A stretch of 64,000 bases of DNA. It comes from Alitta virens (taxonomy: Eukaryota; Annelida; Polychaeta; Phyllodocida; Nereididae). Under the pieces are notes generated by a model. It did no database searches. It had not been told where the DNA came from and worked only from the letters and a program-made list of their open reading frames with translations. The position numbers were made by a program, and so were the translations under genes. Below are positions 2,716-56,715 of the stretch, in pieces. Numbering within the stretch: position 1 is the stretch's first letter; each line of letters starts with the position of its first letter. Location: the NCBI GenBank assembly GCA_932294295.1, contig OW028582.1, forward strand, positions 36,544,704-36,608,703, read 5' to 3'.

Positions 2716-5700
2716 TTACATTTCATTGACCTTGATATGTGCACTTCCCGCGAGGTCGGACAGTTCTTTGGAGTCGAAATTCACGATGATCTCCTTCTCG
2801 CCAGGGGTGAGAGCCGTGAGTTTGACGGAGCCTTTGGCTTCAGCGTGAGGACCAACAGAACTGTAAAAAGAAAGTTATTAGAAATGGTGTTATCGTGATT
2901 GATCCTTTCTCCTGGTTTTTCATGGTCAATTATAAATATGTTTTCACTGGAGACTTATATCTAATGGTCATCTTCAGCAGACTGACCTCTATCAACAGCC
3001 AGAGATATAGTTTCCAGAGAAATAATCTGATTTGCAATGGTTTCATCCAGTTTACTTGCTCAGAAACAGGACGTAGCCATTGCAGTCTGACTTCCAAGAC
3101 TCGGAGACTAGCCATATTGGATGCAGGACTTTTTACTCATGCCATGCATTTACTAAATAGTCAATATAATTAATTAAATTTGAACCACACAATGGCACAA
3201 GTGTTCCAGTTTAAATATACATTGTCGATCGATCTCAAAACAGACAGAAAAGGAATGTCGATTGCAACTTGGGACATTAAATTAAATCAAAAATATAATG
3301 GGACTCACTTGTGTTTGAGTTGTCGTGGCCTCTGCAGACAAGCCCCCTCCACCTCGAACATGCATTTGGTGAGCGACCGAGGAAGTGGATTCTTGAACGA
3401 GTATTCCACCTCGTACTCCTCTCCCACCTTCAATTCTTGTGGAACCTGCAAAGCGGAAAACAGACATAATGGAAGGTACTTGAAGAGGCTTAATATCTAC
3501 GTACACAGCTACTGTATATTGTGCAATATTTGTGTTTCAAAAGCAATACTATAACAAAATAGTCCACTGCCACCAGAACTTGATAACAAGGGTAGAATGT
3601 TTTCTCCTCTCGATTCCAACAAGCACAAGGTTACCAAATTTCTTTGATTTGTCCAACCACTTCTTTTACATGATATATGATAAACACAAGAAAGAAAGAC
3701 AGCTAGAATGAAAGACAGACAGCTAGACAGTGAATGCGACTAACCTTGATCATGATGTCAGGCTTGAGGAGTCGGAAGTCGTCTGCTTCGCAATGGAACT
3801 GGTTGGTCTCTTCCACTCTCACCATGGCGGAGATCTTGATGAGACACATGTCCACCAGTTTGCTAATGTACTCCTCAGGTTTTACACTCATTGTGACTTC
3901 CCCAGCTGAACAAAGAAAAGATAATTTGCAGGTACCTCTGTAAGATCTTCCTCATGTAGAATTGCCAAAGAAAATTCTAATCCTACATTTCGAGTTTTGT
4001 GATAGAGGTAGTACATTTTTACAAGTTTGGCAGTTGATATTGTGTTCATTACTTAGTATTCCCATGAAGGTGATGACATATATAAATATCAAACAAATTT
4101 TATATCAGAAATACTAGCTTTAAGGCCATTGCTTATCACCACTATTCATCGTTATCAGTTATGGTTCGTAAAGTTCTACCAAAACATTTCCATGCTATCT
4201 GATGCTGTTGGTAGCATCTACGTTTCATTCTTTCGAATACTCTATACTTCCATCCTAGACTTTTCTACTAATTCTAAAGCAATAGTTATGATATTGTGAG
4301 TCCTTAGTTAGCCTCAGTTATAATTTATGATACTGACATGCTTTGGCAGGACAACGGCAGCTGAAAGACTGAGTCTTGATATCTCGGACAGGGACGCCGG
4401 TGTAGTAGACAACGCTCGCAGTCAGTGTAATTTTGACATTGCGTTCCTGTGATGATGTGTTGTTGCACTTGAGCTTCACATCAAACGCTTTGCCAAGTAG
4501 GGTGTCTTCCTCCTCGATGAGGTCAAAGTTCATGTCCTGCAAAGGTCAAAGGTCAGACATTGAATACTGTAAAATCTCATCAGCAGGGTGAAGTTTTATC
4601 TTCTTAATCTTTAGGCTCTCTCATTCAAGAAACTACAAAATACAAAAATATGTAACTACCTCCACATCCACAGTGTAAACATCCTGTCTTGAGGACCCTT
4701 CTTTGATCGCCCGCCAGACTGCAGTTCGCTCCATCTGACTTCCTGTAGAAAACATCTTGGTTAATATAACTTGTTATGTTTACTGTAAGAGACAAACAGT
4801 ATAAGTATGGGCTTATTTTAGAAGTGAGATAAAGTGGTATCTTACCCTCTGGGAACTTGTACATAAAACTGACATCCATACGATCGTCACCTCGTGGGCT
4901 CTTCGTGCTGAGATTCTTGCCGATACTGCATAAAAATGAAGTAAGGAAATTTCAGGATTATTCTACCTAATTAGGCTGTCAATCAACCAATTCTAACAAC
5001 TACAAGCCATATTACACTGCACCTGTGTTTCTCCTTCGTATTATTCCAATTATCCCCATCCTTAATCCAGTGCAATCTGTCTGCGTTAACTTCAGCAAAG
5101 AGGAAGGGACCATCATAAGGGAGGTTGACCAGGCCGTTCTTGATGGCTTCAATGGACACCGGTCCACAGCAGTAGACACCTATGGAGAAGACAAGTGTTA
5201 TAGCGGGTTTCATGGTTATATGATGTCATTGCAATTCGAAGGCACAAGCAATGTTCGCAACGTCTTTGCTGTTGGGCTGTTTTCTCGGGCTGTTTGATAC
5301 CTGTATACTGTCAGCTTATGCAGACCTCTCATAAGAGCAGCCCAAAACAGTTCATAAAAACAACACATTTTTAAATGTAATGCATAGAAAAAATGTGAAG
5401 AACATTGACACGACCAAAATGTAGGTTAAACAAGGCACCGAAGATCAGAAAGTTACCTTACCATTTGCTTCTCGGACTATCTTTTTTATTTTGGTAGGTC
5501 TATTTTGCATATTCTAGCTAAGAGTCTCCTATTATGTGTCATTTATTGTTTGCCAGGCTCTATTCATTTTATTTCTCTCTACTTTTATCTTTGCCATGCA
5601 CTTGCCTTCACTGGTTTCCTGAGGTGTAGCATCAATCGCTTGCCATCCTCCGAATCCAGAAGGAAGGTCGGATCTGGACATCCAGACGTCATTCCATACA

Positions 5701-29860: not shown

Positions 29861-30348
29861 CGGTTTTCCCGGTGAAGCCGTATTGCTGTCGTAGAATTAT
29901 GTAATACCTCATTTTGACGACTTCACCACGTTGGTTGGAAGCAACAAGGGGCAGTGCTTAAAGCCCCTTCACACTTAGCCAGATCAGAGGCTGGAGTGTC
30001 CTGGAATGTAATTTCGTTGAATCCGGGGTGGTCCGGGCGAAAAAGTTGAGAAATGTCAACAAACGAAATATTTGGCGGTGTGGACACGAAGGCAAGACCG
30101 TGGCAACACGGAGCAACACGGCCATTACACAGATGTGTACGGTCACTACACGGATATGTACGGCTGAAACATGGTGGTGCCCGGTGAACCAAGGAACGAG
30201 CCACGGTTGTTGCCGGAGGTAACACGACTGGGCCGGATGAGGGCGCAGTGAACCGGATGTTACACGGGGCCTTCATGGATATACCCGATCTTTACACGAT
30301 CTTACTACGATATCACTACGGAATTTAGCGGTTTTCACCTGGATCGCT

Positions 30349-31820
30349 ATGAAATTGGTATTTAAACTGGCTGCGTTCCACTGTCCATCATTCCACTTCG
30401 GACTACCATACTGCAAAGGTGTTGCTGCTACTACAGAAGAATTGGATATGTCTTTATCACACTACGACAGGGTGGAATTGGATGTGAAGTACCTGGACAT
30501 GCAAGTCCAGCTACTTACTGCAGCTAATGATATAATTCAGCAAGAAGAACAGAGACTTCAAGATGATGCAGTGAGGGCCACAACAACAACTGATGAAGAT
30601 GACTTATTACAAAATGCTGGTGCTGCACCAAGAAGAAGAAGAAGGCGAATGTGGGTGCGACCTTGGCTCCTAAGAAGACCTCTTTATGGGCAGTATGAAA
30701 AACTGATGGCTGAATTGACTGCAGAAGATGTGGGTGGCTTCAAGAATTTCATGAGGATGGAGCCTGACTTATTTCATGAAGTTCTTGCCAGAGTGGGACC
30801 TAGGATTACAAAGCAGAATACCTTTTTGAGGAGGGCCCTTGAACCTGGATTGAAACTGGCTAATACTTTGCGCTACCTGGGTACGGGCAACAGCTACATG
30901 TCTCTGCAGTATGGATTTAGGGTAGCCTTCAATACCATTTCTATCTTTGTCATCATGGTCTGCCAGGCCATTATAGACGAGTACTCAGCAGAAGTGATGC
31001 GTTGTCCTGTAACCCCAGAAGCCTGGAAAGAAGTTGCCAATGGATTCTACCACAGATGGAACTTCCCCCACTGTGTCGGCGCCATTGATGGGAAGCACGT
31101 TGCCATCAGATGTCCAAGGAAGTCTGGATCCCTGTTCTACAACTACAAGGGATTTTTCTCTATTGTCCTACTGGCTGTAGTTGATGCTGAATACAAGTTC
31201 CTCTATGTTGACATTGGTGCCAGTGGATCAGGCTCAGATGCTGGAGTGTTTAGTCAGACAGAATTGAAGGAAGCGCTACAAAGTGGGAACATTGGATTAC
31301 CTGAACCAGATAACCTGCCTAATGATGACCAGCCAGTGCCTTACTTCATAGTTGGGGATGATGCCTTTGCACTGCAGACTTGGATGATGAAGCCTCTGCC
31401 TCACAGGAACATAACCATGCAAGACTGAATCTTCAACTACAGACTTTCAACTACAGACTTTCTAGAGCTAGACGGATGGTAGAGAATGCCTTTGGACTTT
31501 TGGCTGCCAGGTTCAGGCGTCTCCTCACAACAATGCCTCAAAGTCCTGACAGAGTGTGCACCATAACTCTTGCTTGCTGTGTGTTGCACAACCTACTGAG
31601 GATGAAGTATCCAACTGCTCAAGTGAATGCTGTGGACCAGGAAAATGCAGACATCCATGAGATCATCCCAGGTGCATGGAGGGAGAATGCCAATCTACCA
31701 GACATGGGACATGTGTACAGAGGCAACACCAACAGAGCAGGCAAGGACATGCAGCAATACTTGGTCAACTATGTGAACTCAGAAGCTGGGAGTGTACCAT
31801 GGCAACAAGACAAGATTTGA
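30349..31820 (+). pseudogene. PIF/Harbinger (HARBI1-like) transposase, broken near its 3' end
   Basis: A DDE transposase for cut-and-paste transposition, active in the nucleus. The first 359 codons are open. Markers are WVRPWLLRRP near residue 100, GAIDGKH with the first catalytic Asp (about residue 247), YVDIGASG with the second Asp (about 288), and FIVGDDAF. A TGA at 31426-31428 then interrupts, and a tandem 14-bp duplication (31432-31445 and 31446-31459) shifts the frame. After it the coding resumes with RRMVENAFGLLAARFR, which holds the catalytic Glu, and continues to a stop at 31820. The third copy at 55726-56715 lacks both lesions in the matching stretch. The start could be the ATG at 30448 instead; an upstream exon is possible. 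Confidence 0.85.
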
Positions 31821-32204: not shown

Positions 32205-33799
32205 TCATCCATACCTGACTGATAATCGTCGAAGATGTCGCAGGAGGGGGATCGGTGCAGGCACAGACGTAGAAGGGGCAGACGACATGAGAGCCTGGGG
32301 CGAAGGGCTGGACGCAGGAGTGAACATCTGGGCAGCAGGGCTGGAAGAATGCTGTGCGAACATCTGGGCAGTAGGGCTGGAAGAATGCTGAGCGAACATC
32401 TGGGCAGTAGGGCTGGAAGAATGCTGAGCGAACATCTGCGCAGCAGGGCTAGAAGAATGCTGATGAGGGAACATCTTTGCAGCAGGGCCAGATGAACTGG
32501 CTGTAGTAGCAGGAGCAGGGAGGACGAACTGCTGCTGCTGATGAGGGACAGGCGGCACAAAGGGATGATACTGCTGTTGCAGTTGCTGTTGCTGTTGCAG
32601 TTGCTGCTGGCGCTTGCGACGATACACCTGCTTAAACTGCATCAGGTGCTGTAAGGTTTGGGCCTGGTAATCCCACCAAGTGTCCGTGTCCATCTGCATG
32701 ACCTCGTGGTATATCATGTCCGTGAAAACCCTCTTGGACAAGCTGCCTGACTCAGTCGGCTGACTCAACTTGCTCTGCATGTCCCGCTACTATGCAAAAG
32801 CTACAACTTTAAAATGCAAGATTACAATTACAACTTTAAACTGCAACATTACAATAAGATTATCTTGATTATCACGACAACTGAAGCAGTATACTTACTT
32901 GAGTGACAGTTTGTGTAGCAATTCCACCTCCACTACCTTCAAGGCTGGATGCATCACAGTCATGATGATGACGAGGCTCGTGCTGACGTCTGGACGTCTT
33001 CTTGCTTGGAGGAGGGGCCCACTTCTTCTTGTTCCTGCTGCTGCTGCTGCCCTTGTAAGGCCCACCCTTGGACCTGCTGGTATCCAAATCCCTGCCACCA
33101 TCATCTGAACTATCCACAATGACCTCATCAGCATCAGAGTCTCATCATCGTCAGTGGTAGCTCTGTTGCTGGATGCACATTTGGCCGATAAGCTGTGGGA
33201 AAGCTGCCCACCTTTTTTTCTCTTCCCAGCATCAACCCTCTTGATGTGCCGTTCAAGATACCCAAAATTTTCCATTATCCAGTTGTCCCGGATCTGTGAG
33301 GATTCTGGCGGCCCCACCAGAAGGCTTCTTGCTTGGATCCGTCAGCCTCCCCACTGAAGTCCGCATGGAGTCTATCCACGTCTTCAGCTGCTGGGCAGTG
33401 CAACTCAGCTCCTTCGCCTTCCGGGTGATTATTCGGGATTTGATGTCTGTCCGCTTGTATTGAGCTAGCCGCCGGTTGTAGAGCATCTCCTGGGAACGGT
33501 ACCAGTCAGCCACATCTTGTTCCTGGTCTTCTGTCAGGTTCAGGGGGTCTTTCTTATGCCTCTTCGCTTTTGCTGCAGGTGGTGGTGGAGCTGCAGCAGC
33601 AGTTACTGCAGGTTCATCAGCAGGTAATTCATCATCAGCAGCAGCAGGTACAACTGGCCCAGGTAAATCTGGCATGTCTTGCGGACTTTGTGGTCTTGAT
33701 GAGGTATTACTGCCTGCATCTTCTTCAACAGCAGGTGCAGGTTCCTCTGGCACAACAGTCTTCTTGGAAGCCCTTCCTTTTTCCTCTCCTAGGTGGCAT
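32205..33799 (-). pseudogene. MADF-like DNA-binding partner protein of the inner Harbinger element, frameshifted
   Basis: Harbinger elements normally pair the transposase with a Myb/SANT- or MADF-type protein that binds the element ends. Two exons: 32899-33799 (ATG at 33799 in a CACCATGCC context) and 32205-32786, joined in phase across a 112-bp intron (donor GTAAGT). The MADF-like region includes DWYRSQEMLYNRRLAQY and QLKTWIDSMRTSVGRL, followed by WIMENFGYLERHIKRV. The second exon is Gln-rich and has a 12-residue repeat containing MFAQHSSSP, about four times. Single-base shifts are needed near 33770, 33290 and 33140, while the host genes in this window are clean, so this is decay rather than general sequencing error. 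Confidence 0.75.
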
Positions 33800-34488
33800 G
33801 GTGGTTATTCACACCAATCCAGAAAGTAATATCCAGAAGAAGTGGTCGATAAAGCAATTAATTCGATGTTGATGAACGGCGTGCGTGCGGCGGAATGATG
33901 CTTCTCCCAAGAGGGCGGTTCTATATATACTAAGGCATCCGTACTCACTCCGTGTCAGGCTAATTAACACCGTGTTGACACTTTGTTCACTCCGGCCTCT
34001 CCGTATTGATAGCGAGTGACACCGTGTACATAACGGGGTTACCGGTGTCAAGCAAATGACCTGTAAACCGCTTTCCCTGTTCTCTCCGGGTTTACTCCGT
34101 GTTGCCCCTTGTTCACTGGTGTGGAACCACGTTGCTCCTTGTACTGACCGGCGAGTACTTTTCACGCCCGGTTGACGCCGGACTTAGCCGGAGATCACAC
34201 GAGGTATTCCGGAGTCAATACGGAGGTCCTCGGAGATCGACGGAGTCTACTGGGAGTCTACATGGATCAACACGAAGTGATTTACTCTGGTTCCTCCGGC
34301 ATGAAAAATTAGACATGTTTAATTTTTTCCCGGAGTCCAAGGTCTTCTCGGATAGCCCCGGACAATGCCGGACAATGCCGGACAATGCCGGACAATGCCG
34401 GACATGAACACGAGGTCTACACGGCATTACCCGGAGTATGCCGGCGTTTCCCGGATTTGTCCTCCGGTACGCTCCGGTGTCTAATCCA

Positions 34489-42390: not shown

Positions 42391-45300
42391 TCATTCACTT
42401 TTGACCTTGTCATTGACATGATTGACCGTGACCTCATTCTGAACGTTGTTGTGGTTGACATTGACCTCTTTTTCAAGGTCATCGTGGTTGACCTTGACCT
42501 CTTTTTCAATGTCATTGTGGTTGACATAGACCTCCTTTTCAAGGTCGTTGTGGTTTCCCTGTCCATCTGGACATTGCAGCATTGTTTGGAGCAGGTTGTG
42601 TGTTGATTGAATCTCTTGGTATCGGCAAAATATACTTGCATACTCTGGTTTCAGTTCAGCATAGTTCTTGAATTCCTCTGAAAAACAAGAAGAAATAAAC
42701 AAAATGTGAATATGTTATCTTCTGTAACTATCGCTGTAAACCTCAACTACAGTCACACCTAGAAATATACCTGGACACTTTCAGAATTTCCTGTAAATTC
42801 AAACTGTAAGAGAATGGTTATGTTACAATGACTATTATTAGACTCAATATCAACACTGGTCGGGAGAAGCCAAAAGTCCCTAGGGACAAGCAGAAGTACT
42901 TCAGGCACTTTTCCGAATAGACAACGAAATCTAAACAGTTAAATTGTCTTGCAGTCATTCAAATCCAATTCAACACTAGCAAATGCCAAGTGGCCATAAG
43001 AGTTCTAAATTATTTTTATTTAATGACCCTATTACAATAGAAAAGTAACCTCACCATAAGTAATGCGGCCATCTTTGTCTGCATCTACACTCACAAACAA
43101 CTGGTGGGCGTCCACATCCGCAAGACCGAATGCTGTCATGAGAATGTCTTTTAACTCTTGTTCTTCTATGTATCCCTTGTTTCCATGGTCAAACAGCTGA
43201 AAATTTTGAAAAATTGAAGTCATTTTCCCAGTTGTAAGTTAATATGATAAAAAATATCAAGTTAATGTAATACAGAAGTATTTATTACTTCATTCTATGT
43301 CAGACGAGAGAAATCGATTCATCAAATTTGGGACTGAAGACTAATGCAAGAAGCTTCTAACATTTCAAGTTACAGTCAGGGTCATTGAAGTTGGCCAGGT
43401 CATCGAAATTCGCCACCCCCAACAAACACTCATCATTTACAGTGTTCTCACACTTTGACAGCCAACTCAGAAATGGTGATGGTTTATTTAGAGTAGCGAA
43501 TGTCGATAACCCTGGCCAAATTCGATGATTAAAGTTTTCAGACATCCCCCCACCACCTCTTTTTAAAATTTTTGATGACCGTCTTATTTTTTTTAATTTG
43601 AATATTAACCAAATACTGGTGATCCATCCCTCCCCTTCTTTATATATTTTGGAGAACCACCCCACCCTTCCCTGCTTTAAAAAAAAGTTTCCTGTCTGCC
43701 CCCAACCCACTTTTAAATGGTACAACCCTAAGATAGCAATACAAAAATGACAAAGCAAAGAAAACTCGCCAACAAACCTCAAATGCTAAAGTAATGGTAG
43801 AATCATTATTGGCCGGCATTGCGACTAAAGACAATCCTATGATGTATTCTCGGAAGTCTAATTTGCCCGAGCCATCCTGTAATAGAAATCATACATGAGT
43901 AAGTTTTAATCTAAATCTTATTAGCAAAACTACTTAATAACTACTTAATAAGATGCTGAGAAGATACAACTCCGCGTAAAGTCAAACTTATACATTTTGA
44001 TGCAAATTGAAAACAGGTAAGAGGTCATTTACGCATCAGCCATTTGCACATATGACCTCAGTTCAGTACAGCCGACCAGTATGACAACCGAACATCACAA
44101 AACTGACCATAGTCCACAATGGTCATTGTGACATCTTTGCATTTGTTTTAAGAATGAAATGATTGACATCATACTGGTCAACTCGACGGAAACTGATGTC
44201 ATCTGTGCAAATGGCTAAGGTGTGAATAGAGCCTACTTTTACATTTTCTTTCATTGAATTATCTATCAAGGCACATCACAAATCTAGATTATCAAAAGTA
44301 TCCTAATAATACTTGTAACGACTACAGGCACATACATGAAATTTATACTTTGTCCAAGTAATCAATGTGACATTAACAAAAGTCGATTCTGAAGAGATAA
44401 TTTCAGTCACTAACCCTGTCATATAATTCAAAGACATCCTTCAATGACTCCGACACTGGGAGATCTAAATACTTCGCAAATGTCTCGAGGTCAATTTGAC
44501 CATGACAGCTTTGCGCAATTCCTCCAAATCTCTCCATTAGTTCTTTCAGGCTGGCATAGCTCACACTGAAAACAGAACAGCCGATGTAAAACATAATGCT
44601 GCAGCAGGCGACAACCCTCAGCTGGGACTGAAGATTGCATCACACAGATGGAATTAATTAATTAGGACCCAAGAAAATAGTAATAACATTCATCCCATCA
44701 GCAAAAGCTTTAGTGCCCTTGAATCTGGTTATCTATAAGCAGTTGAAAACCCCTTTAAAAAAAATTAAAGACAAAATAAAATAAACTCTTACCCTAGCTT
44801 TTTGTTCAACTTGGAGAACTCTACTAATCCTGAAGCTGCGGGTAGATCTAACGTGGCAGCGTACTTCATTAATCGGATATCTTCGTAAGTGTGATCTGTC
44901 ATGGGAACTGCCATGGCTCTGAGATGGAAGAAAAGTCGTTTCAAATAAACAAGTTATTGACAAGCAGAAAGACTCATAGTACTCTTCACTTTCATCAATA
45001 ATTCAGATTAAAATCAACAATTGTATATATTATGATAACATTATTACATTTTGCAGTTGTAGATTACTGATCCCCAGGTCTATTACATTTAGCCATCATT
45101 ACAAACCAAATTTCAAGACAAGAACAGAGATTGAAAATGGTGTTCATACTCTTCAAGATAGAAGTTCATACATAACCAAATTGACCTACACGATAATTGA
45201 CGCTAAACCTCAAATAATTTCTGTCTTGTTCAGACACCAATCGGTATTTTTTTTACTTACTTGGCCATAATATCCCTAACATTAGAAGCAAATAATCTGC

Positions 45301-48300
45301 CATCTTCAATTTCTTCTTGACTAGGTCTATAAACTGGCAAAAACTGCAAACGAAGACAAATTATCAATCTTTATTCATAAGAACATACACATTATGCACA
45401 AATATGTATCATACTTCTCTGTGAGAGGACCTTAGCACAAAATCATTAGATTGACTCTTGTATGACACATTCAATTTGCAGTTACATGATACAAATTGCC
45501 ACTAGGGGGCGTGGCAGGTATACTGCATTAACGAGAGAACCTCTTAATATATCGCGGTTGACATTAATGTCCCCCCAGGTGTGTGAAATAGAGAGGCTCC
45601 ACTGTATTCCATTCAAATTATGCTATATAACATTTAGTTAACAGGATGAATATCATACATTTGTTGAAAATCACACAAAACTTTTTAAAATTAGAATGAC
45701 ATACCAATTTTTTTTATTTGAATGACATACCTCTATCTCAGTTTTCAGATTAAGTTGACACATGGAATACCAAAGACACTGAAAACTGGAGCAGAAGAAA
45801 AAACCACTTTATATAAATATCTCTTTAATAATTAGGCATGTGAATATATTTTTTAAAATCTTAATATCAGCTGACTCTTGGCAGGAACTCTGAAGTCAAT
45901 GTTAAAATGGAGCTGCCTTGTGCCTGATGACTGATGCTGGGGCAAGTAATAAACACCACCCACAAGCTTATAATTATGGGGTAAATAAATTACCGTAAAT
46001 TTACAACATGTGGTCTAGTCTTATCATCTGATCATTACATCTGCCGCTGGCAGCTGATCATAAAAAAATCACAGCAGCAGATAGCAGTTCAGTAACACTA
46101 GAAAACAATGAATTTGCTTATTCAAGACATGACTTACGCATCTAGCCCCTCCCAAGTCCACGTAATGGTATCTAGGCGGTTGGAGTATCGAATGCATACT
46201 GGCTGAACTGCTACACCAGGATAGAAGGCACCTGAAAAGGACAACAATCAATTAGGATTCACTCATCATTTGGAAGACATCATACAGAGACAATCTCACT
46301 GCTGTCACACCTGTGTTAAGCAGTGATCTAAGGGAACATATCAATTTGGCATTTATTAAAAATGGGCCATTTTATTACACCTAGTAGTAAGAAAATTAAT
46401 GATACAGTCTATAGGAGTTGCAAGTGGCCATTCAAAGCAGGTGAATAGTTTATACATGCTGGTAGGTCAGGCCATTAGGGCCCAGATCAAGGCATTCAGC
46501 TTCCGAGACATTTCATGAGCAAGAAGTTATTAGCTTTTACAATACTCTCAAAATATCCAGATTTAATTCATAATAAAACGTTTCAAGCTGTTATAACACT
46601 TGTTCACAAAATGCCCAGTAAATATTTGATTTAAAAAAAATTCCACAAGGTTTCAAATTGTTACAGCATAAATTCATAAACTGCCAAGTAAATATCTGAT
46701 AAAAACGTTCTAAGAAGGTTCCGTATTACTCACCTGGTTTGAATGAAATAAGACAAGAGCGATTGGTGCACGTCCCTTCAGGGAATAGCGCCACTTGCGG
46801 CCATTTTCCCGCCGACTGCGCTCGCTCTTTTATGGCCTTTATAGTGTTTTGTCGCGAGTTGGGATCTTCTCTCGATACAAAAACAGGCTGCGTGTATCTG
46901 GTTAATGCTGAAAGTCAATATAAAAACGTTTAAAATTATGCATTAGTCTGGTTCTGCTCAGCACACAAAGATCTTTCACACATTATTTTCTAACATTTTG
47001 CCTTAAATGATTTAGCATTTCTCAGACACAAACAATGCATAAGTATAGTATTATATTTATTTATCACTGAATATCTTACAAATCTAATTTATACTTAAGT
47101 GAAACATTTCTTACTCGATTTGTCTCATTATGTCTTGCTTTATTACTTCAACTTATGAATATAAAATTAAACTCTTACGAATATCTTGGAAAAAAATCCA
47201 ATGCTTAGCGATTGTTAATTGTATGTGAACAGCAGAAAGATGCAGAAATGAAGGTTAGTCACTAACTAAGTATAATCTACATAATTTCACATATACACAC
47301 AAATCCCTTTAACATTATTTAAAATGATTGATATCAGGAGTTAAAATGCAAGATCGTAGAGGTAAATGGCGTTATGACCAAAAATGTGATTAGTAACAGA
47401 TTCAAAACTGCTCTTTAAAAGTGATATCACGTAACAGGCCATAACTTCAGGACATTCATGATCTAATTTCTAATGTTAGAATAACAAATAACTCTCGAAG
47501 AAAATAATAATGGCACATTCTAATAGGAGTGTGACAGATGTATTAGAGTGCCTAGAAATGGCTAGCATATTAGTGGTTACACAGTGAGTTGGGCAAGCAC
47601 TGAAAATAACTAAATAAAATGCTCATGTGACGTAGATCATTGCTTTGTATTGTGAAACAACTATCCAAAAGCTTTTCAATTTGCTCAACCAGTCAAGAGT
47701 GCTGATCAACAGAGGGATTATCCTAAATGTTGATTACTTTGTTTTACAAACAGTCAAAGTTGGCGGGAGATATTCAATGGTCTCTCACGGCCTAAATCTA
47801 CAAACAATAACAACCAACGAGACGGTGTAACCACTTTTCTGCTAGACACTGTAAGGGTTTCAACTTGATTTTTTATATTTTTAATTACATAAGAATGGAC
47901 CCAAAGTTTTGGCCTGTAGGATGAACTGCAAAAAAAGAATATTAGTAGCAGCAATAAGAAACAGGTCCTAAACTAGCATTACCCTACTGTCTCCATTACA
48001 GACCTGGTCCAAAACGTAACATATTTTAAATTAGAAACTGGGCATAAAATTATCAGGAACACACATATCCGACATAATGTCGCTCTAAGGGCTGTTCCAT
48101 TTAAAAAAGAGAAGGGAGGGGGAGAGTGGACTTAAAATTTTTAAGACCCCCCCCCCCCCCTCCCGGCCTCCTTTTTTCTACATTAAGATAAAGAAAATAC
48201 TGGCCAACCACCCCTCCTCCCCATTTTTCTCTTTTGGAGAACCCCCTCCCTAACCCGCTTTTCAAAAACCTTCCTGTTCACCCCTCCCCTCTTTTTTAAA

Positions 48301-51300
48301 TGTAACAGCCCAATGGAACATGGTTTCTGTAATGATGAATGTTATCTCCGAAATACCATAGTGTAACCAAGTACAAGAATCACAGTAAGAGCAGTCTTCT
48401 GGAATGATGTTATCAAAAAAGTTGTTTCATCCAATATACCGAAATCAGCATCAAATAGATCTCACATAAAATAAAGGCAAAACTTCGCTCATCTGACATT
48501 ATGATATATGAATCACAAAATTTATGAAAACAATATGTCCCTCACTGCAATCTTCTCCATCAGAAAGATTTGATTCCACTCCTGGAGTTCATTAATTTAT
48601 CAATCAACTAATTTGATAACATTCCACAACTTCAGCAATATAATGGGTTATCAGAATAGTTCACAGAAATATACAACAATACAATACCAAACTCAGTGGT
48701 TAGTACAACAAATTCGAAATATATTAAGAGCAACTTTAAGGGCTGTTCCATTTTATAAAGAGGAGGGGGGTGGACAGGAACATTTTCAGAATCCCCTCCC
48801 CTTCGGCTTTTTGTTTTTGGACAGACCCCCAAGCCACTTTTTTCTATATTAAGAAAATACTGGTCAACCATCCCCTCCCTCCCCCTCCCTCCCCCTCTTT
48901 TGGAGTACCACCCCCCCCCCCCCCTTTGCACTTTTCAAAAACCTTCCGATCCACCCCCTCTTTTTCTAAATGGAACAGCCCTAACGGAGAGTTGAAAGGT
49001 CACAATACTTCAAGAAATTGTCATGGTCTCAGGGAACAACTTTGCAAATATAAATTAGGTTGGTTGAGAGGGTCGTTTTTAATGATAGCAGGACTTTAGT
49101 GTTGAATACAGGAGTTAGTGCGTTTAATATTAACATTAATTGTAAAAGCAGTGTTAAGTAGTTACAGTTTCAGTAGAGTAAGTGTGGCAGTCACTTTCAT
49201 TCAAGCTGCTTGTGAGACGCTTCATACAATTGCAAAATTTGCTGTCCGCATGAAATTTGCTGATCACAATTGCAATATCAGAGTGGATATTCAAGATAAT
49301 TATTTGCATACAAACAGAGAAACCCCAAATTAACACGATCTCTCCATTACAACCAAGTATTCAATTAAATAGATGGAGTATCATCTACTTGTGGAAGATG
49401 ACACTCCATTTATCAATTAATTAGGGGCAATTGCGATTTAACTTAAATATTTGATTGTATTGCCTCTGTGCTTTTAGTCTAAGGCTTGGTTAGCCACTGT
49501 GACCAGATGCCAGAGGCAAAGGTAAGGATGAGATGATCAAGCCACACAATGATCCATCTCTTATACAATATTTTCCAGTTAGATTCAGCACACTTTTTTA
49601 ATTCAATTTGTATGTCAAGATGGTTTTAATTGTAAGTTTTCACTGCTGTATACTTCTGCAAACAATACGTACTTCCCACAAAAGGTACTTTCAAGTTTTC
49701 CACTCGGGAAACACTGCTTGGAAAACCGCAAAGGCAGAACACAAACATGTCGAACATGCTACTATGTGGAGCAAAGACTAAAAGTGGTGCTTCCTCGGCC
49801 GTAGCTTGGGTCCCAATCTTTTCGATTCGGTAAAAACCAATTACAAAGAAAATCGCTCGGCCGAGCCCTGCGATGGCACTTCTGGTTTTCCTGGGACAAA
49901 TAATGCAAATTAATGTTGTAAATTTCAAAATAAATCAAAACAAGCATTTTTTGTTGTTGTTGAAATTCACACCCAACGATGAAACACATTCAGAAGTTCA
50001 AAGCATCAGAGGTTTGCCAGTTGAACAATGACCTTGAAAATCCTGAAACTTCTGAAACTTCTGAAATAAATGTAAGATCAATGCTTTCATTGGACACATT
50101 TTCTCAAGCTGGAAGAATATTAAAAATATCTTTAGTTAGTCAATGAGAACTCCCAAAATGTCCTTCTAATTCGCTAGACACACACTTTCTGAAATGAAGC
50201 AAGAAATATTAATCGCACTGTGGATAATCAAGTTTTGGTCAAACCGCTTCACTGAAAACGATCATACGCCACTTACCTCAAAAACTTAAAATTAGTCAAA
50301 ACTTTTGGTCATACAAAGGCTTGTGGTGATAATACTAGCAATGAAAAAGTAAAAACAATTTGTAACGAGTCCACACAGTTCTACATTTTGCATGCTTTGC
50401 TAAATCTACAAAAGAAAGAGGGAACAAACAACATCTAGAGAAGAGAATCATCATCAGGTCAATGATGGGACGAAACATACTGCCGAATATTGGGACATTT
50501 TCAACTTCAGCCTTGGCAACCACTGATGTCAGATTGAGGAAGACGATGGGGAGAGCGTCAAAAAAGGACGAGTGGGGTGAAAGAGCAAGGATGGGCGCCT
50601 CTTCTGCTGATGCCCACCGCCCTTTTGTGGTGATCCAGTGAAAGCCTCCGACGAAAAAGACTCCTCGGCAAAATAGCACGACCACAGGACGCAACCAGCT
50701 GGAAGTTCAGAGCATTAGGTTAACTTAAAACAACTATAAATACAAGTTATATAGAAGTTATGTGTTAGATGACATATTAGGACCCAACAAACAGTTGCAA
50801 AACAAGCGATCAACCCTTACTGGCTTATCTTAATTGCTTCTTAATCAGTTATATATATAATTTTTAATTTTTTTTTTCATTACAGGAAATTTTTAAACAA
50901 TTTTTCAGCACACCTTTAAAAAATTTTCTTACATGAAATAATCATCAATATCTAAAACAGACCAATATGAGACAAACAAACCTAATGGTTTATCACCAGG
51001 TCTCTTACGTATCTAAATTTGGCTGTCAAAGAAAATAATAAATGAAACCGATGAACAATAAATAAGCGACTGTACTTCTTAATCATTTTATGTTCATATC
51101 TTATATGTTATTGCAGGTTTTATTGTTATACTTTACATGTACATCTACTGTCCAATTTAACTACGCTAATATTTAATCACTGTTATCTTGACAATCAATC
51201 TATTTATAAATAATTTACAATTAGAAACTTTTTCTGGCAATACTGAAAATTTTAATTTTAACAGCTTATAATACAAACTCCATACAACTTGTGTATTTGA

Positions 51301-54300
51301 TTAACGATTTATTATTGTACGTTTGGTTATATAACAAACCTTGAAGTTTATCTTCACATATATATAGCAACATAAATGTGTAATGCATTCGGGAAATTCT
51401 AACTTACAGAGTCAAATGACATGATATCAGTCTGTATTGTTAAATGATGTTAATCCTGACGATTCTATTTAAAAGAGTTACATGTCATATTTGGTTGCAT
51501 GTCAGTAAAGACGTTAAGTAGAATAAGTGTTTGTCGATTTAGAACATTACCATCATCAATTATCATCATTTTATCTTTTTTGAAATTTCATCATTATGTT
51601 ATAAACAATGACCTATATTAAACAATGACCTATATCCTGTATATGTGATATCACTCTTTTGTAAACAGCTAAATAGCCATTCTACGCCAATACTAGATTG
51701 ATATCTGAGCAAATAAGCATCACGATCATGAGGGTGATGAGGACCTTGTATTTATTGAATAAACACAAAGAGGGTATGATGATTCACATGATAAGGTCAT
51801 AGTCCACCTATCTGCTTATATCATGTTCATCTCTACATGGTTATTCAGTGACACATGTTCGATGCAAATCACTCCAACCAAACCTCATCATTTAATCAAT
51901 AATTTTGGCCAACTCGCTACATTTTACAGACACCCAGATTGTGTTGTAAATAGTATAGTTGTCCTATTTGGCTTATACAATTTCAAACCAAAGCAGGAAC
52001 TGCTCTATGGCCTTAAATTATCATACTCCCATGCAGCTTTGACTAGTCAGGGTGTAAATTATATGATCGCATACAAACTTCATGAATAGAGCAAAAATGT
52101 TGATGCCAAGGAGTTAGTTAATCTGTTTGTATGAGTGCTTATAATATAAGTAATATATCTTTGATTGAAATAACAAGACAACTTTTACTTTCATTAAAAA
52201 ACAGTCAGTACTGTGTGGACCATGTGGACACAATATCAGTGGCGCCCCTACATATCGCACCAAGGGGGAGCTAGGGGGGCGTTTGGTCCTTTGTGACATC
52301 ACAATGATCTGTGATGCAATTTTGATTGTATTACATTGTTGTGTCATGAAGGCTGTCGACAGATACACAACTATCGGTGCCACTATTAATCCTACTGGGC
52401 TGCAGTTATTGTTTTTCTGATGTTCCCAAGGTCAGTCATTTGTATTACAGTTGTTGTACAGCTCACCCCCACCCTCACTAGAAAAAGTTACATTATTTAT
52501 ATATACATATGTAAATTATTTGCACTTGCACCCTGATAACAGATTGTCCATTTTGTCAATGCACTGGCCTGTCATACATACCCCTAATGTACATTTGTGC
52601 TATCAAAACAATGATATACAATGATAATTGTTTTTTTTGCAGATATCACATTTGAAATGATAAACTGTTTATATTTAACTCCCTGACATCTGTTTTACAC
52701 CTCATCAAATTAAAAAAAGCCACTGTTTTTAGTTCAACAATATATGATAACTGGAGCGTAGAGGTCAATATCTTTTTTTAAGCTCAACAAACATTCTATA
52801 TTTTATGATGCAGCAGTCTATGATCAAATAAAAACTCGAATTAACTTTTTTTTTAAACAATAAACAGCTGCAAAGTTATACCATCATGACCTAAATGGCG
52901 GAAGTATTTATTGTTATGATTATCACATGTTGGCAATATATTCAATTTCAACAAAATTTCACAACAATTTTTCTGAATTCGGAAACTTCCGTTAACATTA
53001 ATAACAACATGACAGTACACGGAACCCATATTTATAAACCTTCAGGTCCTAAGCATTTACAAATGTATATGTCACAATTGTTCATTTTATCTCAGCCACA
53101 TTAGAATATTCTCCATTATCATCACTGTTATTTCAATTATTATATTATATATATATTGTAATACTTTCATATGTATAAATTTAATTATATATTTCCTCTT
53201 TTGTCTTTCTTCTATTATATAAATTCTTATATTTTTGGTTGTTTTCCTCTTAATTTTTCCTTTATCAAATTTTTTTTCTTCTCTTTATAATATCTTAAGT
53301 TTTATGATTATTATTTTATTTTACTTTCACTTTACTATGCCTGTACACCAAATATGCCCTCTGGCATCCGGTATATCACGCATAAATTTGTCTTAACCAC
53401 TACTGTATACTTAGGCTGTAGGCAATAAATTAATAAAAATATGACATTGATAATAACAAAAACCCTTTTCGTACTTTGTTCGCTGAGGGTTAAAAATATC
53501 ACAACCATTGATCTGAATTCTGAACTTCCCTGTTAACATTTAAGTGGAACATAGGAAATAAAAAGATGTTTCTGGGTATAACAAGATATACATTTTAGTA
53601 TAAAATTTCTTACTTTCGCCATCCGCTCATGGGCTGTTTCTGCTCTTCTTTAGACCTGCCGAGGAGTGCGATCGTTGCGAATCCCCAGGCTATTACTAAC
53701 AGGAGACCCACTAGGAGTAGTTTGATGGGTACGATCGTCAATGACATCAACAGAATCTGCAATTATTAAACCCAACAATATCATGAATATATGTCAGATC
53801 TGATGCACAATGATTACACATATAGCCTGACTAATGCTGAGAGATTTGAATTTGTCATGAACCTAGATTGCAATGCTAGATTGGATCATTGTTGAATCAA
53901 TGTTGGATCAATGTTGGATCAACGTTAGCTAGTTGATGTTGAGCCAATATGGAATGTTATCTGGGAACATTCAACGAAGCATGTAACATAATACTAACAT
54001 TATTGAAATTATTACACAATGCCAATTGATGAGAATTTCAATCTTAAGTTCATATATTATATAATCCATATAAATTATTGGTAGTGTCCTATAACCCTCT
54101 AATATATATAAATGCCCATGATGATGTGATCATTTCAATAGCACCAGCAAAACTTCTTGAGAATGACTCATGCATATTTCTCAGGTGACCTAAGATCACC
54201 ACATGATCTGAAGATGATGTAAATCTTTACTGAAATTTCATTAAGACGAATCATAATTATGAAATAGCTCTGATTTATCACTGTCCATTTACATTGTAGA

Positions 54301-54782
54301 AATCAACATAACTACATGACATTGTTTGTATCACACTGTCTCTCAATACATAAAATGTAATAATTCCAAACAATTACTATGCATATATAGGATTTAATGA
54401 ACTTTAAAATACATGGAAGTACATAACCATATAGCAGTACTAAGATTTGAACAATCTATTCACTGATAGTGATACATGTAGATGATGTAAAATGTACAGC
54501 AATGACATGCAATGTACAGCAATTTACTTGGAAACAGTCAGCAATCAACTCTTGTAATCAGAAGTTTGATTGTGACACATGTCCCATTCAATGCAATGAA
54601 CAAATATTTTCACCAAAAATAAATTATGTTATCATGTTATAAAAGCAATCGTGAAAAATGTCTTTTGTTTACAAACAAACCTGCAACTTGTCAACCCATG
54701 TCAAACGCAGATGATGTTCAAATGGATTTTGCACTTCGGGCAGACATAGAGAGCCCTCCCTCGACAGCTTGGGTCTCGTCAT
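42391..54782 (-). CDS. LPCAT: Lysophosphatidylcholine acyltransferase (LPCAT1/2 family) with EF-hands
   Basis: A membrane enzyme of the phospholipid remodelling (Lands) cycle that transfers acyl groups from acyl-CoA to lysophosphatidylcholine or lyso-PAF at the ER or lipid droplets. Coding exons: 54681-54782, 53614-53756, then either 50481-50698 or 49673-49890, then 46734-46907, 46138-46231, 45731-45785, 45261-45343, 44793-44918, 44415-44565, 43778-43876, 43055-43196, 42391-42677. Either choice gives 1674 nt, 557 residues. Features are NPFEHHLRL near residue 19, a hydrophobic segment (about 35-62), HX4D at 124-129, SRED near 166, FPEGTCTN at 196-203, and EF-hand loops at 381-392, 418-429 (weak, Gly at position 3) and 453-464. 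The tail has an 11-residue repeat and no KKXX or KDEL signal. All phases agree. Confidence 0.96.
42424..42555 (-). repeat. 33-bp coding minisatellite at the LPCAT C-terminus
   Basis: Four in-frame units of 33 bp encode NHNDLEKEVYV, NHNDIEKEVKV, NHDDLEKEVNV and NHNNVQNEVTV, with a partial fifth before the stop. The unit is acidic and charged, likely helical or disordered, and absent from the vertebrate LPCAT tails I know. Confidence 0.9.
43535..43735. mobile_element. MITE family C, truncated copy
   Basis: It shares AAATACTGGT, ATTTTGGAGAACCACC and a right end AAATGGTACAACCCTAA with the family C copies at 48089-48311 and 48740-48981. The left inverted repeat is not recognisable. It lies in an LPCAT intron next to the EF-hand exon at 43778-43876. 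Confidence 0.6.
48089..48311. mobile_element. MITE family C, copy 1
   Basis: Inverted ends GGGCTGTTCCATTTAAAAAA and TTTTTTAAATGTAACAGCCC enclose a strongly C-rich/G-rich interior with no coding potential. It is in the LPCAT intron downstream of the alternative exons. TAA precedes it; the right flank has changed. Confidence 0.8.
48740..48981. mobile_element. MITE family C, copy 2 (Tourist-like)
   Basis: Inverted ends GGGCTGTTCCATTT and its counterpart AAATGGAACAGCCC, with TAA directly on both sides (48737-48739 and 48982-48984). TAA is the usual 3-bp target duplication of PIF/Harbinger elements, so this is probably a Harbinger-derived MITE. It lies about 430 bp from copy 1 in the same orientation. 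Confidence 0.8.
49673..49890 (-). other. LPCAT: LPCAT alternative exon 3b (HX4D = HSSMFD)
   Basis: 218 bp with acceptor TTTGTCCCAG and donor GTACGT. It enters in phase 2 and leaves in phase 1, exactly like the copy at 50481-50698. It encodes GRAIFFVIGFYRIEKIG, then APHSSMFD with the catalytic His and Asp, then FPSSVSRVENLKVPFVG. It joins correctly to the upstream exon (completing AAG, Lys) and the downstream exon (ACA, Thr). The pattern around PSSVSR...ENLKVP resembles vertebrate LPCAT2 more than LPCAT1 (comparison from memory). Confidence 0.9.
50481..50698 (-). other. LPCAT: LPCAT alternative exon 3a (HX4D = HSSFFD)
   Basis: 218 bp with acceptor GAACTTCCAG and donor GTATGT, with the same phases as 49673-49890, 590 bp away. 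It encodes FFVGGFHWITTKGRW, then SPHSSFFD with the catalytic His and Asp, then SVVAKAEVENVPIFG. About 29 of 73 residues are identical to exon 3b without gaps, and both catalytic residues are kept, so neither copy is a dead duplicate. The GGFHW...HSSFFDALP and VAKAE pattern resembles vertebrate LPCAT1 (comparison from memory). Confidence 0.9.
50699..53613 (-). other. LPCAT intron upstream of exon 3a
   Basis: 2.9 kb of AT-rich intron. No additional copy of the HX4D exon was recognised here. A G-rich fragment at about 52231-52280 looks like a piece of a dispersed element. Confidence 0.5.
53866..53967. repeat. Short repeat with a family-A-like right end
   Basis: The right end GGAATGTTATCTGGG resembles MITE family A. 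The interior has tandem TTGGATCAATG units. The left inverted repeat is not clear, so this may be a related MITE subfamily or a decayed copy. Confidence 0.4.
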
Positions 54783-55646: not shown

Positions 55647-55725
55647 TTAAGGGTGGATCTCACATAGCCGTATAAAGTGGCGGAAAATCCGTGGTTGATA
55701 TGTAGACACAAAGTTGACGTGAATC

Positions 55726-56715
55726 GTGATGGTAAAGGAGCTTGTACAACTAGCTGAGGCGAGCATGGAATTGAATCTTCAGCTTGCTTTTGTATTGCAA
55801 GCTGTGGAAAACGAAAAACCAGAAAAGAAGAAAAAAGCGATTTTTAGCAATCAGGAGAAGGTTAATTGCCAAGAAGAGGTTTGGGTGAGGCCCTGGCTGC
55901 TCAGAAGACCTCAGATGGGCCAGCACAAACGCTTGCTGAATGAATCGAGGGATGAGGATCCAATGCATTACAAGAACTTCCTCAGAATGGACCCTGCAAT
56001 GTTTCAGGAGCTTCTTGCTAAAGTTGGTCCTAGGATAGAGAAGACAGACACTTTCTAGAGGAAAGCTTTGGAACCAGGACTGAAGCTAGCCATCACTCTT
56101 CGCTATTCTGCTATTTGGCCACTGGTAACAGCTACAAGTCCCTCATGTATGGCTTCAGAGTGGCCAGCAACACCATAAGCAGCATCATCCCAGAAGTCTG
56201 TGAAGCCATCATTGCAGAATATGCTGAAGGTCATCTCCTGTCCTACAACTCTTGATGAGTGGAAAGAACTTGCTGATCGGTTTCCTTCAAGAACTTCCCT
56301 GATTGCATCAGAGCCATAGATGGAAAGCATGTGGCCATCAAGTGTCCTCCCAAGGTGGCTCAATGTACTACAAGAACAAGAGAATCCACCCATTGTACTC
56401 ATGGCTCTTGTGGATGCTGAGTACAAGTTCATCGATGTTGATTGTGGAGCAAATGGATATGTCTCTGATGGAGGAGTTTTTGCTGCGACATCCCTGAGGG
56501 AAGCTTTAGAAGATGGCACTCTTGGATTACCTGCACTTGCACCTCTTCCTGGTGGTGACACATCTGTACCCTGCTTCATTGTTGGAGATGATGCCTTACC
56601 CTTGAGAAGTTGGCCCATGAAACCTTTGCCCCTGAGGAACATGACAAGACAGCAGAGAATCTACAACTACAGGCTTTCACGAGCAGAAAGAGTTGTGGAG
56701 AATGCTGGAAAGTGA
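55726..56715 (+). pseudogene. Harbinger transposase remnant
   Basis: It starts in an open stretch with WVRPWLLRRPQMGQHKRLL. A TAG at about 56056-56058 stops it where the inner element's transposase has FLRRALEPG. An extra segment near 56104-56115 and small shifts near 56220-56360 follow. RAIDGKHVAIK, ALVDAEYKFIDVD and FIVGDDALP are still readable. It ends in RVVENA, with the catalytic Glu, after which the C-terminus is missing and the sequence runs into the MADF-like gene's tail. Confidence 0.8.

Follow-up and report, generated by a model that had tools for sequence, protein, structure and literature searches.

A predicted either-or pair of catalytic exons in an annelid LPCAT1/2-type gene, with counterparts in other animals

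Can a single invertebrate gene, by splicing in one or the other of two exons, make two acyltransferases with different active-site surroundings? This question is raised by a 64,000-nucleotide stretch of the Alitta virens genome (contig OW028582.1; hereafter the window), whose minus strand carries a complete LPCAT1/2-type gene of 13 coding exons, two of which (exons A and B) are alternatives to each other (Table 1). In both predicted isoforms, Pfam searches detected the PF01553 acyltransferase domain (62.1/57.1 bits) and EF-hand models above cut-off. The order of these elements, i.e., PF01553 with its HX4D and EGTCTN motifs followed by EF-hands, is that of LPCAT1/2-type proteins, and the gene is thus an acyltransferase of the AGPAT family with EF-hands, with a predicted activity as lysophosphatidylcholine acyltransferase or lyso-PAF acetyltransferase. 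A 33-nt tandem repeat (42419-42550, minus strand) gives the tail of the protein an 11-residue repeat.

Table 1. Features of the A. virens LPCAT1/2-type gene, in window positions. Bit scores are to profiles of the two exon types.
Feature	Position	Strand	Remark
First coding exon (MTRPKLSREG...DKLQ)	54681..54782	-	start codon at 54782; donor GTTTGT
Constant exon 2, hydrophobic N-terminal region	53614..53756	-	exit phase 2
Alternative exon A, 218 nt, residues 82-154, HX4D = HSSFFD	50481..50698	-	A/LPCAT1-like; A profile 126.5 vs B 58.5 bits
Intron separating A from B, 590 nt	49891..50480	-	
Alternative exon B, 218 nt, residues 82-154, HX4D = HSSMFD	49673..49890	-	B/LPCAT2-like; B profile 73.4 vs A 52.9 bits
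Constant exon, FPEGTCTNR motif	46734..46907	-	single genome match
Constant exon (AFYPGVAVQPV...)	46138..46231	-	
Constant exon	45731..45785	-	
Constant exon (FLPVYRPSQEE...)	45261..45343	-	
Constant exon	44793..44918	-	
Constant exon, EF-hand region begins	44415..44565	-	
Constant exon, EF-hand	43778..43876	-	
Constant exon, EF-hand	43055..43196	-	
Last coding exon, tail with 33-nt (11-aa) tandem repeat	42391..42677	-	TGA ending 42391

The original prediction held that A and B arose by tandem duplication of one exon, and that both copies measure 218 bp, share entry and exit phases, have good splice sites and keep the catalytic His and Asp. The observation was confirmed: the coordinates and lengths of both copies were recovered, and each exon is bounded by GT-AG sites, is entered in phase 2, is left in phase 1 and encodes an HX4D box with His and Asp in place. 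Its identity count of 29 of 73 residues (about 40%) came to 28 of 73 on recounting, and the claim of homology stood, being far above what shuffling yields (the best of 100,000 ungapped shuffles of B gave 17 identities). Open frames of this length are rare in the two flanking introns: of 5246 segments of 218 nt taken from them, only 64 read through without a stop in the equivalent frame. An exon-family profile built without the window sequences and run on all six frames of the window matched A (E 7e-33) and B (E 8e-28) and detected no third copy, the next best stretch scoring E 0.7.

The predicted frame logic, in which only one of the two exons at a time gives a full protein, also held. Splicing in A only or B only yields 557 aa ending at a common TGA; inclusion of both reaches a TAA 16 codons past exon A (170 aa), and skipping of both reaches a TGA in the next exon (124 aa). 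Mutually exclusive homologous exons are recognized by equal or similar length, compatible splice sites, the same frame and homology, and further by a mature transcript that carries one and only one of them (available text of PMC3228551). A and B agree with this description in length, splice sites, frame and homology, and their double inclusion or skipping is non-productive. We consider it very probable that A and B are a mutually exclusive exon pair. The frames and the homology predict a choice of A or B for each A. virens mRNA, of the kind that appears as isoforms in relatives.

Two exons of this kind could also belong to two separate genes, or follow alternative first exons and share the exons downstream. 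We searched the A. virens genome (671 Mb in 23 contigs) with a tool that scores its best first-look candidates and may miss remote relatives. Exon A as query found two places at E <= 0.001, namely A and B of the window; exon B found the same two places at E <= 0.1; and the constant exon with the FPEGTCTNR motif found a single place at E <= 0.1. At this sensitivity, exon queries thus revealed no second LPCAT1/2-type gene in the genome, so both exon types should come from one gene. The single match of the next constant exon argues against separate genes, as do the acceptor and phases of exon B, which are like those of A.

Isoforms of other animals bear on the same point. A protein search with isoform B returned 1212 matches, and many of the best 120 were labelled 'isoform X1/X2' of one gene. 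We scanned 171 proteins for pairs with an identity of 97% or more outside segment 83-155 (counted to residue 470) but of no more than 70% inside it. Twenty-one pairs showed this swap pattern, and none did at any of 10 other segments of equal length. Within-species pairs made up 17 of the 21 and came from 13 named species, which we take to be ten molluscs (Mizuhopecten, Biomphalaria, Gigantopelta, Saccostrea, Haliotis, Dreissena, Mya, Ruditapes, Pomacea and Crassostrea virginica), one brachiopod (Lingula) and two hemichordates (Saccoglossus and Ptychodera). The isoforms of these species are 98-100% identical outside the exon (residues 1-470) and 27-44% identical within it; in alignments they are identical to residue ~82, divergent to ~155 and identical after that, and in the Crassostrea and Pomacea pairs the C-terminal tail differs too. 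The agreement within pairs ahead of the exon, and after it as far as residue 470, argues further against separate genes. We found nothing in favour of separate genes or alternative first exons and regard them as very improbable.

The isoforms of relatives are probably computed gene models for the most part. In one further pair of the 21, P0036/P0044 (394 of 397 residues identical outside the exon, 31 of 72 inside), the source contigs are at most 1,575 and at most 3,460 nt, which suggests that both forms exist as RNA. Another three of the 21 pairs set Mytilus californianus against M. coruscus. One M. coruscus gene model (P0004) carries both exon types in series and is perhaps a prediction error. 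Among the isoforms of one Ptychodera flava gene (P0006, P0012, P0017) there are three exon versions, which implies a larger exon cluster in that species. The either-or exon is conserved and probably old, and databases already list it as 'isoform X1/X2' for many relatives. The frames, the isoforms of relatives and the single downstream exon all support the central claim of the original prediction, namely that the catalytic exons of a single LPCAT gene are mutually exclusive. A functional pair of this kind, in the sole LPCAT1/2-type gene found in the A. virens genome, is the best explanation overall, and we hold it with considerable confidence.

What would the swap change in the protein? The swapped segment is residues 82-154, and PF01553 spans residues 112-226 in isoform A and 104-226 in isoform B. 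A sequence search for a solved LPCAT relative gave none among the matches listed (60 of 455 chains), which cover the EF-hand part alone. We modelled both isoforms of Haliotis (mean pLDDT 75 for A, P0029, and 79 for B, P0022), and by fold each resembles PlsC of Thermotoga maritima (5kym; target TM-scores 0.62 and 0.65). Both models place a helix at ~81-99, strands at 104-108 and 119-123, the HX4D loop, a helix and a strand at ~141-146 in this region. The EGTCTN motif and the EF-hands are encoded by constant exons. By sequence, Pfam and the models of the mollusc pair, the swap would exchange the N-terminal half of the PlsC/AGPAT fold (strands one to three, the HX4D catalytic loop and the helix that precedes the core), while the EGTCTN motif, the remaining core and the EF-hands would be common to both forms. 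One gene would in this way encode two acyltransferases, each with its own active-site surroundings. On these models, both isoforms should be catalytic and should differ near the active site and in the preceding helix.

We infer that the isoforms probably differ in acyl-CoA or lysolipid preference. The swapped exon also takes in the modelled helix at ~81-99, ahead of the catalytic core, and the switch might instead alter membrane topology, location or calcium response while substrate choice stays the same. We consider this unlikely, though worth keeping in view, since the exon also spans the catalytic loop and the adjacent strands and since the alternative exons of coq-2 change the product that is made (PMC7434440). 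According to the available text of that study, coq-2a and coq-2e resemble the LPCAT pair in being alternative exons of one invertebrate lipid-pathway transferase gene whose isoform sets the product; they differ in that the enzyme is another one and its function was shown genetically in C. elegans, whereas the LPCAT pair is read from sequence and its two types are split over two genes in vertebrates. The gate exons of ACSL6 and ACSL1 are likewise a mutually exclusive pair in an acyl-lipid enzyme, with a motif thought to set activity (PMC1543647, in the portion available); there, however, a short fatty-acid gate motif (Phe/Tyr) is exchanged in mammals, whereas the LPCAT exons exchange 73 residues that include the catalytic box. 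If the proposed switch is real, phospholipid remodelling in many invertebrates would be set by splice choice at the active site instead of by gene choice.

To date the A/B split, we built two trees from 60 of 291 fetched proteins plus the window, one on the exon alone (62 rows, 74 columns) and one on the remaining protein (48 rows, 440 columns), and set them against each other. The rest-of-protein tree mostly tracks the host lineage: it unites LPCAT1 with LPCAT2 (99/94), echinoderms with hemichordates (100/98) and Oratosquilla with three arthropod-like rows (100/100). Exceptions are the cnidarian Pocillopora with two kin rows, and the long rows unk85/88, which fall among chordates. The exon tree is instead split into A and B across lineages (support 90/93). 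On the A side lie mollusc, brachiopod and nemertean A-type exons and window A, together with the three rows classed as arthropod-like on the remainder of the protein, Ptychodera X1 and X3, Saccoglossus 2, Glandiceps, Patiria X2, Antedon X2 and vertebrate LPCAT1. The B side holds mollusc and brachiopod B exons, window B, two annelid rows and Octopus, as well as amphioxus, Styela, Pocillopora and kin, Oratosquilla, two starfish X1 rows, Diadema, Anneissia, Ptychodera X2, Saccoglossus 1 and LPCAT2.

In this tree, window B groups with the long rows unk85/88 (95/82) and stands apart from the mollusc B exons. This position would fit a faster-evolving exon B that has decayed into a relic spliced rarely or never in A. 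virens, as would its best match among the 120 relatives listed (~52% identical, vs 69% for A) and its low-scoring donor, although low donor scores are found in both exons (5 and 6 of 9). We nevertheless regard a relic as improbable: the 72 codons of B are open, its catalytic His and Asp, both splice sites and its phases are kept, it scores 73 bits to the B profile, and other B exons have long branches too.

Tandem exon duplications are reported to have arisen convergently in vertebrates and invertebrates (available text of PMC9741552), and the LPCAT exons could likewise have duplicated independently in each lineage (molluscs, hemichordates, arthropods), with the likeness of LPCAT1 to A arising by convergence. 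AU tests reject the full form of this history: placing the exons of every lineage in a clade of their own costs 92 log units (p 0.005). Holding the arthropod-like and vertebrate exons together gave p 0.005, and a single clade of all spiralian exons was also rejected (p 0.0185), while a single A clade was not rejected (p 0.33). The other constraints on single groups, applied to only 74 columns, were not rejected (starfish p 0.175, arthropod-like p 0.154, hemichordate p 0.21), nor was a clade of window A and window B over the same 74 columns (p 0.13). These non-significant tests, with Spiralia as the exception, leave some room for independent duplication, as do hemichordate exons that are equivocal by profile; set against the rejected constraints, we judge it unlikely but not negligible. 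A split between A and B that predates the separation of at least some of the phyla that carry them is supported by the sequence comparisons, and it probably arose before protostomes and deuterostomes separated.

We then typed the vertebrate exons with profiles whose training set was limited to ten A and ten B exons, taken from nine molluscs and Lingula. All 120 rows listed in the LPCAT1 search, a few of them nameless or misnamed, were type A (by 14.4-26.1 bits), and all 58 listed rows of vertebrate LPCAT2 were type B (by 2.5-21.5 bits). Type A was also assigned to the three arthropod-like rows (+33 to +35), two nemerteans (+27, +31) and the crinoid Antedon (+18), while six hemichordate rows and Patiria X2 (-6.3 to -0.4) were equivocal between the profiles. 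No chordate with both exons was found among the matches listed, in which 6 of 6 amphioxus rows and the tunicate row were B. A focused exon tree of 76 rows that had already been typed by profile, with ambiguous and several long rows left out, placed A with LPCAT1 and B with LPCAT2 and misplaced no row. At eight marker columns that distinguish A from B, LPCAT1 has the usual letter of A at three (Gly99, Trp103, Lys144) and lacks it at the other five in most rows; LPCAT2 has the Ser143-Arg144 of B in 11 of 11 rows. By these sequence comparisons, each vertebrate paralog carries what is classed as one exon type, A in LPCAT1 and B in LPCAT2. The A. virens gene is like them in family, EF-hand architecture and exon types, and differs in that one gene holds both exons, whereas vertebrates have two genes (LPCAT1, or LPLAT8, and LPCAT2, or LPLAT9) with one version each.

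Did the vertebrate genes divide an old splice switch between them? Derivation of the LPCAT1 exon from A over derivation from an LPCAT2-like exon was favoured by 17-27 log units, but keeping the LPCAT1 and LPCAT2 exons together was not rejected in these tests over the 74 columns (AU p 0.111, 0.175, 0.102). In the rest of the protein, a group of LPCAT2 and amphioxus without LPCAT1 was not rejected (p 0.13); placing LPCAT1 outside every bilaterian gene was borderline (p 0.054), and a group of LPCAT2, amphioxus and ambulacrarian genes without LPCAT1 was rejected (p 2e-7). The sampling of a recent phylogeny, which in its available text took only an LPLAT9 (LPCAT2) from amphioxus and sea urchin (PMC13051972), agrees with a single gene in invertebrate deuterostomes. 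We lean, by a little, towards LPCAT1 and LPCAT2 as a partition of the old switch, with common descent favoured. The fuller history is in our view evenly balanced: the ancestor of protostomes and deuterostomes would have had one LPCAT gene with both exons, and vertebrates would have exchanged splicing for LPCAT1 (A) and LPCAT2 (B), so that the surfactant-type and PAF-type enzymes stem from two splice forms, while molluscs, brachiopods, hemichordates and A. virens would still make the choice by splicing.

LPCAT2 has a role in PAF. In a competition assay described in the available text of PMC13051972, LPCAT1/LPLAT8 chiefly used palmitoyl-CoA. If the partition is correct, the 73-residue segment should carry much of the substrate difference between these two medically studied enzymes, and the origin of that difference would be explained and dated before vertebrates. 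Paralogs that each retain one alternative exon have a precedent in fish mitf and other genes (review PMC5306129, as far as its available text goes). The mitf case follows a duplication in fish, whereas the proposed LPCAT partition would be as old as vertebrate LPCAT1 and LPCAT2 themselves, and the switch older than the divergence of protostomes and deuterostomes.

The original prediction knew of no description of such a switch for LPCAT. A search of open-access full-text literature, judged by the titles and abstract starts of part of the matches, likewise found none, and a term search for 'LPCAT' in the main text of a human landscape paper (PMC5740500) had no hit, although the databases already list the isoforms as X1/X2. 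Mutually exclusive exons, splice switches in lipid enzymes and the sharing of exons between paralogs are of a known kind; what is new is the LPCAT case, which looks unusually old.

How might exclusion be enforced? The 590-nt intron between A and B makes steric exclusion unlikely. We also considered competing RNA pairing and rejected it for the stretches examined, as pairing among the middle intron (590 nt) and the 600 nt to each side did not exceed that of 60 shuffles (z +1.07, +1.40, -0.53). No known RNA family was detected in the window at gathering score. Compared with what we take to be the nine-position donor consensus, the donor of A matches at 5 of 9 positions and that of B at 6 of 9; the other ten donors match at 6 to 9. 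Doubly spliced or skipped products would be frameshifted and are presumably destroyed, and exclusion may thus combine regulated weak splice sites with the removal of frameshifted products. Ahead of the acceptor of exon B lie 140 nt without an AG (49893-50032, minus strand), compared with 23 nt for exon A, and this stretch may mark a distant branch point.

Several other features lie in the window. The intron after exon B holds two short palindromic elements (48083-48311 and 48734-48982), which are G-rich and MITE-like with inverted repeats of 32-38 nt, and a related stretch occurs near 43659-43701 in a later intron. Two DDE_Tnp_4 transposase ORFs lie on the plus strand (30241-31817 and 55723-56715), the second of which is upstream of the first LPCAT exon and looks broken. 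A MADF-domain ORF (33253-33804, minus strand) sits in a stretch of 50% GC. Finally, an ORF at 4318-4545 (minus strand) encodes a transglutaminase C-terminal domain and probably belongs to a neighbouring transglutaminase gene on the same strand as LPCAT.
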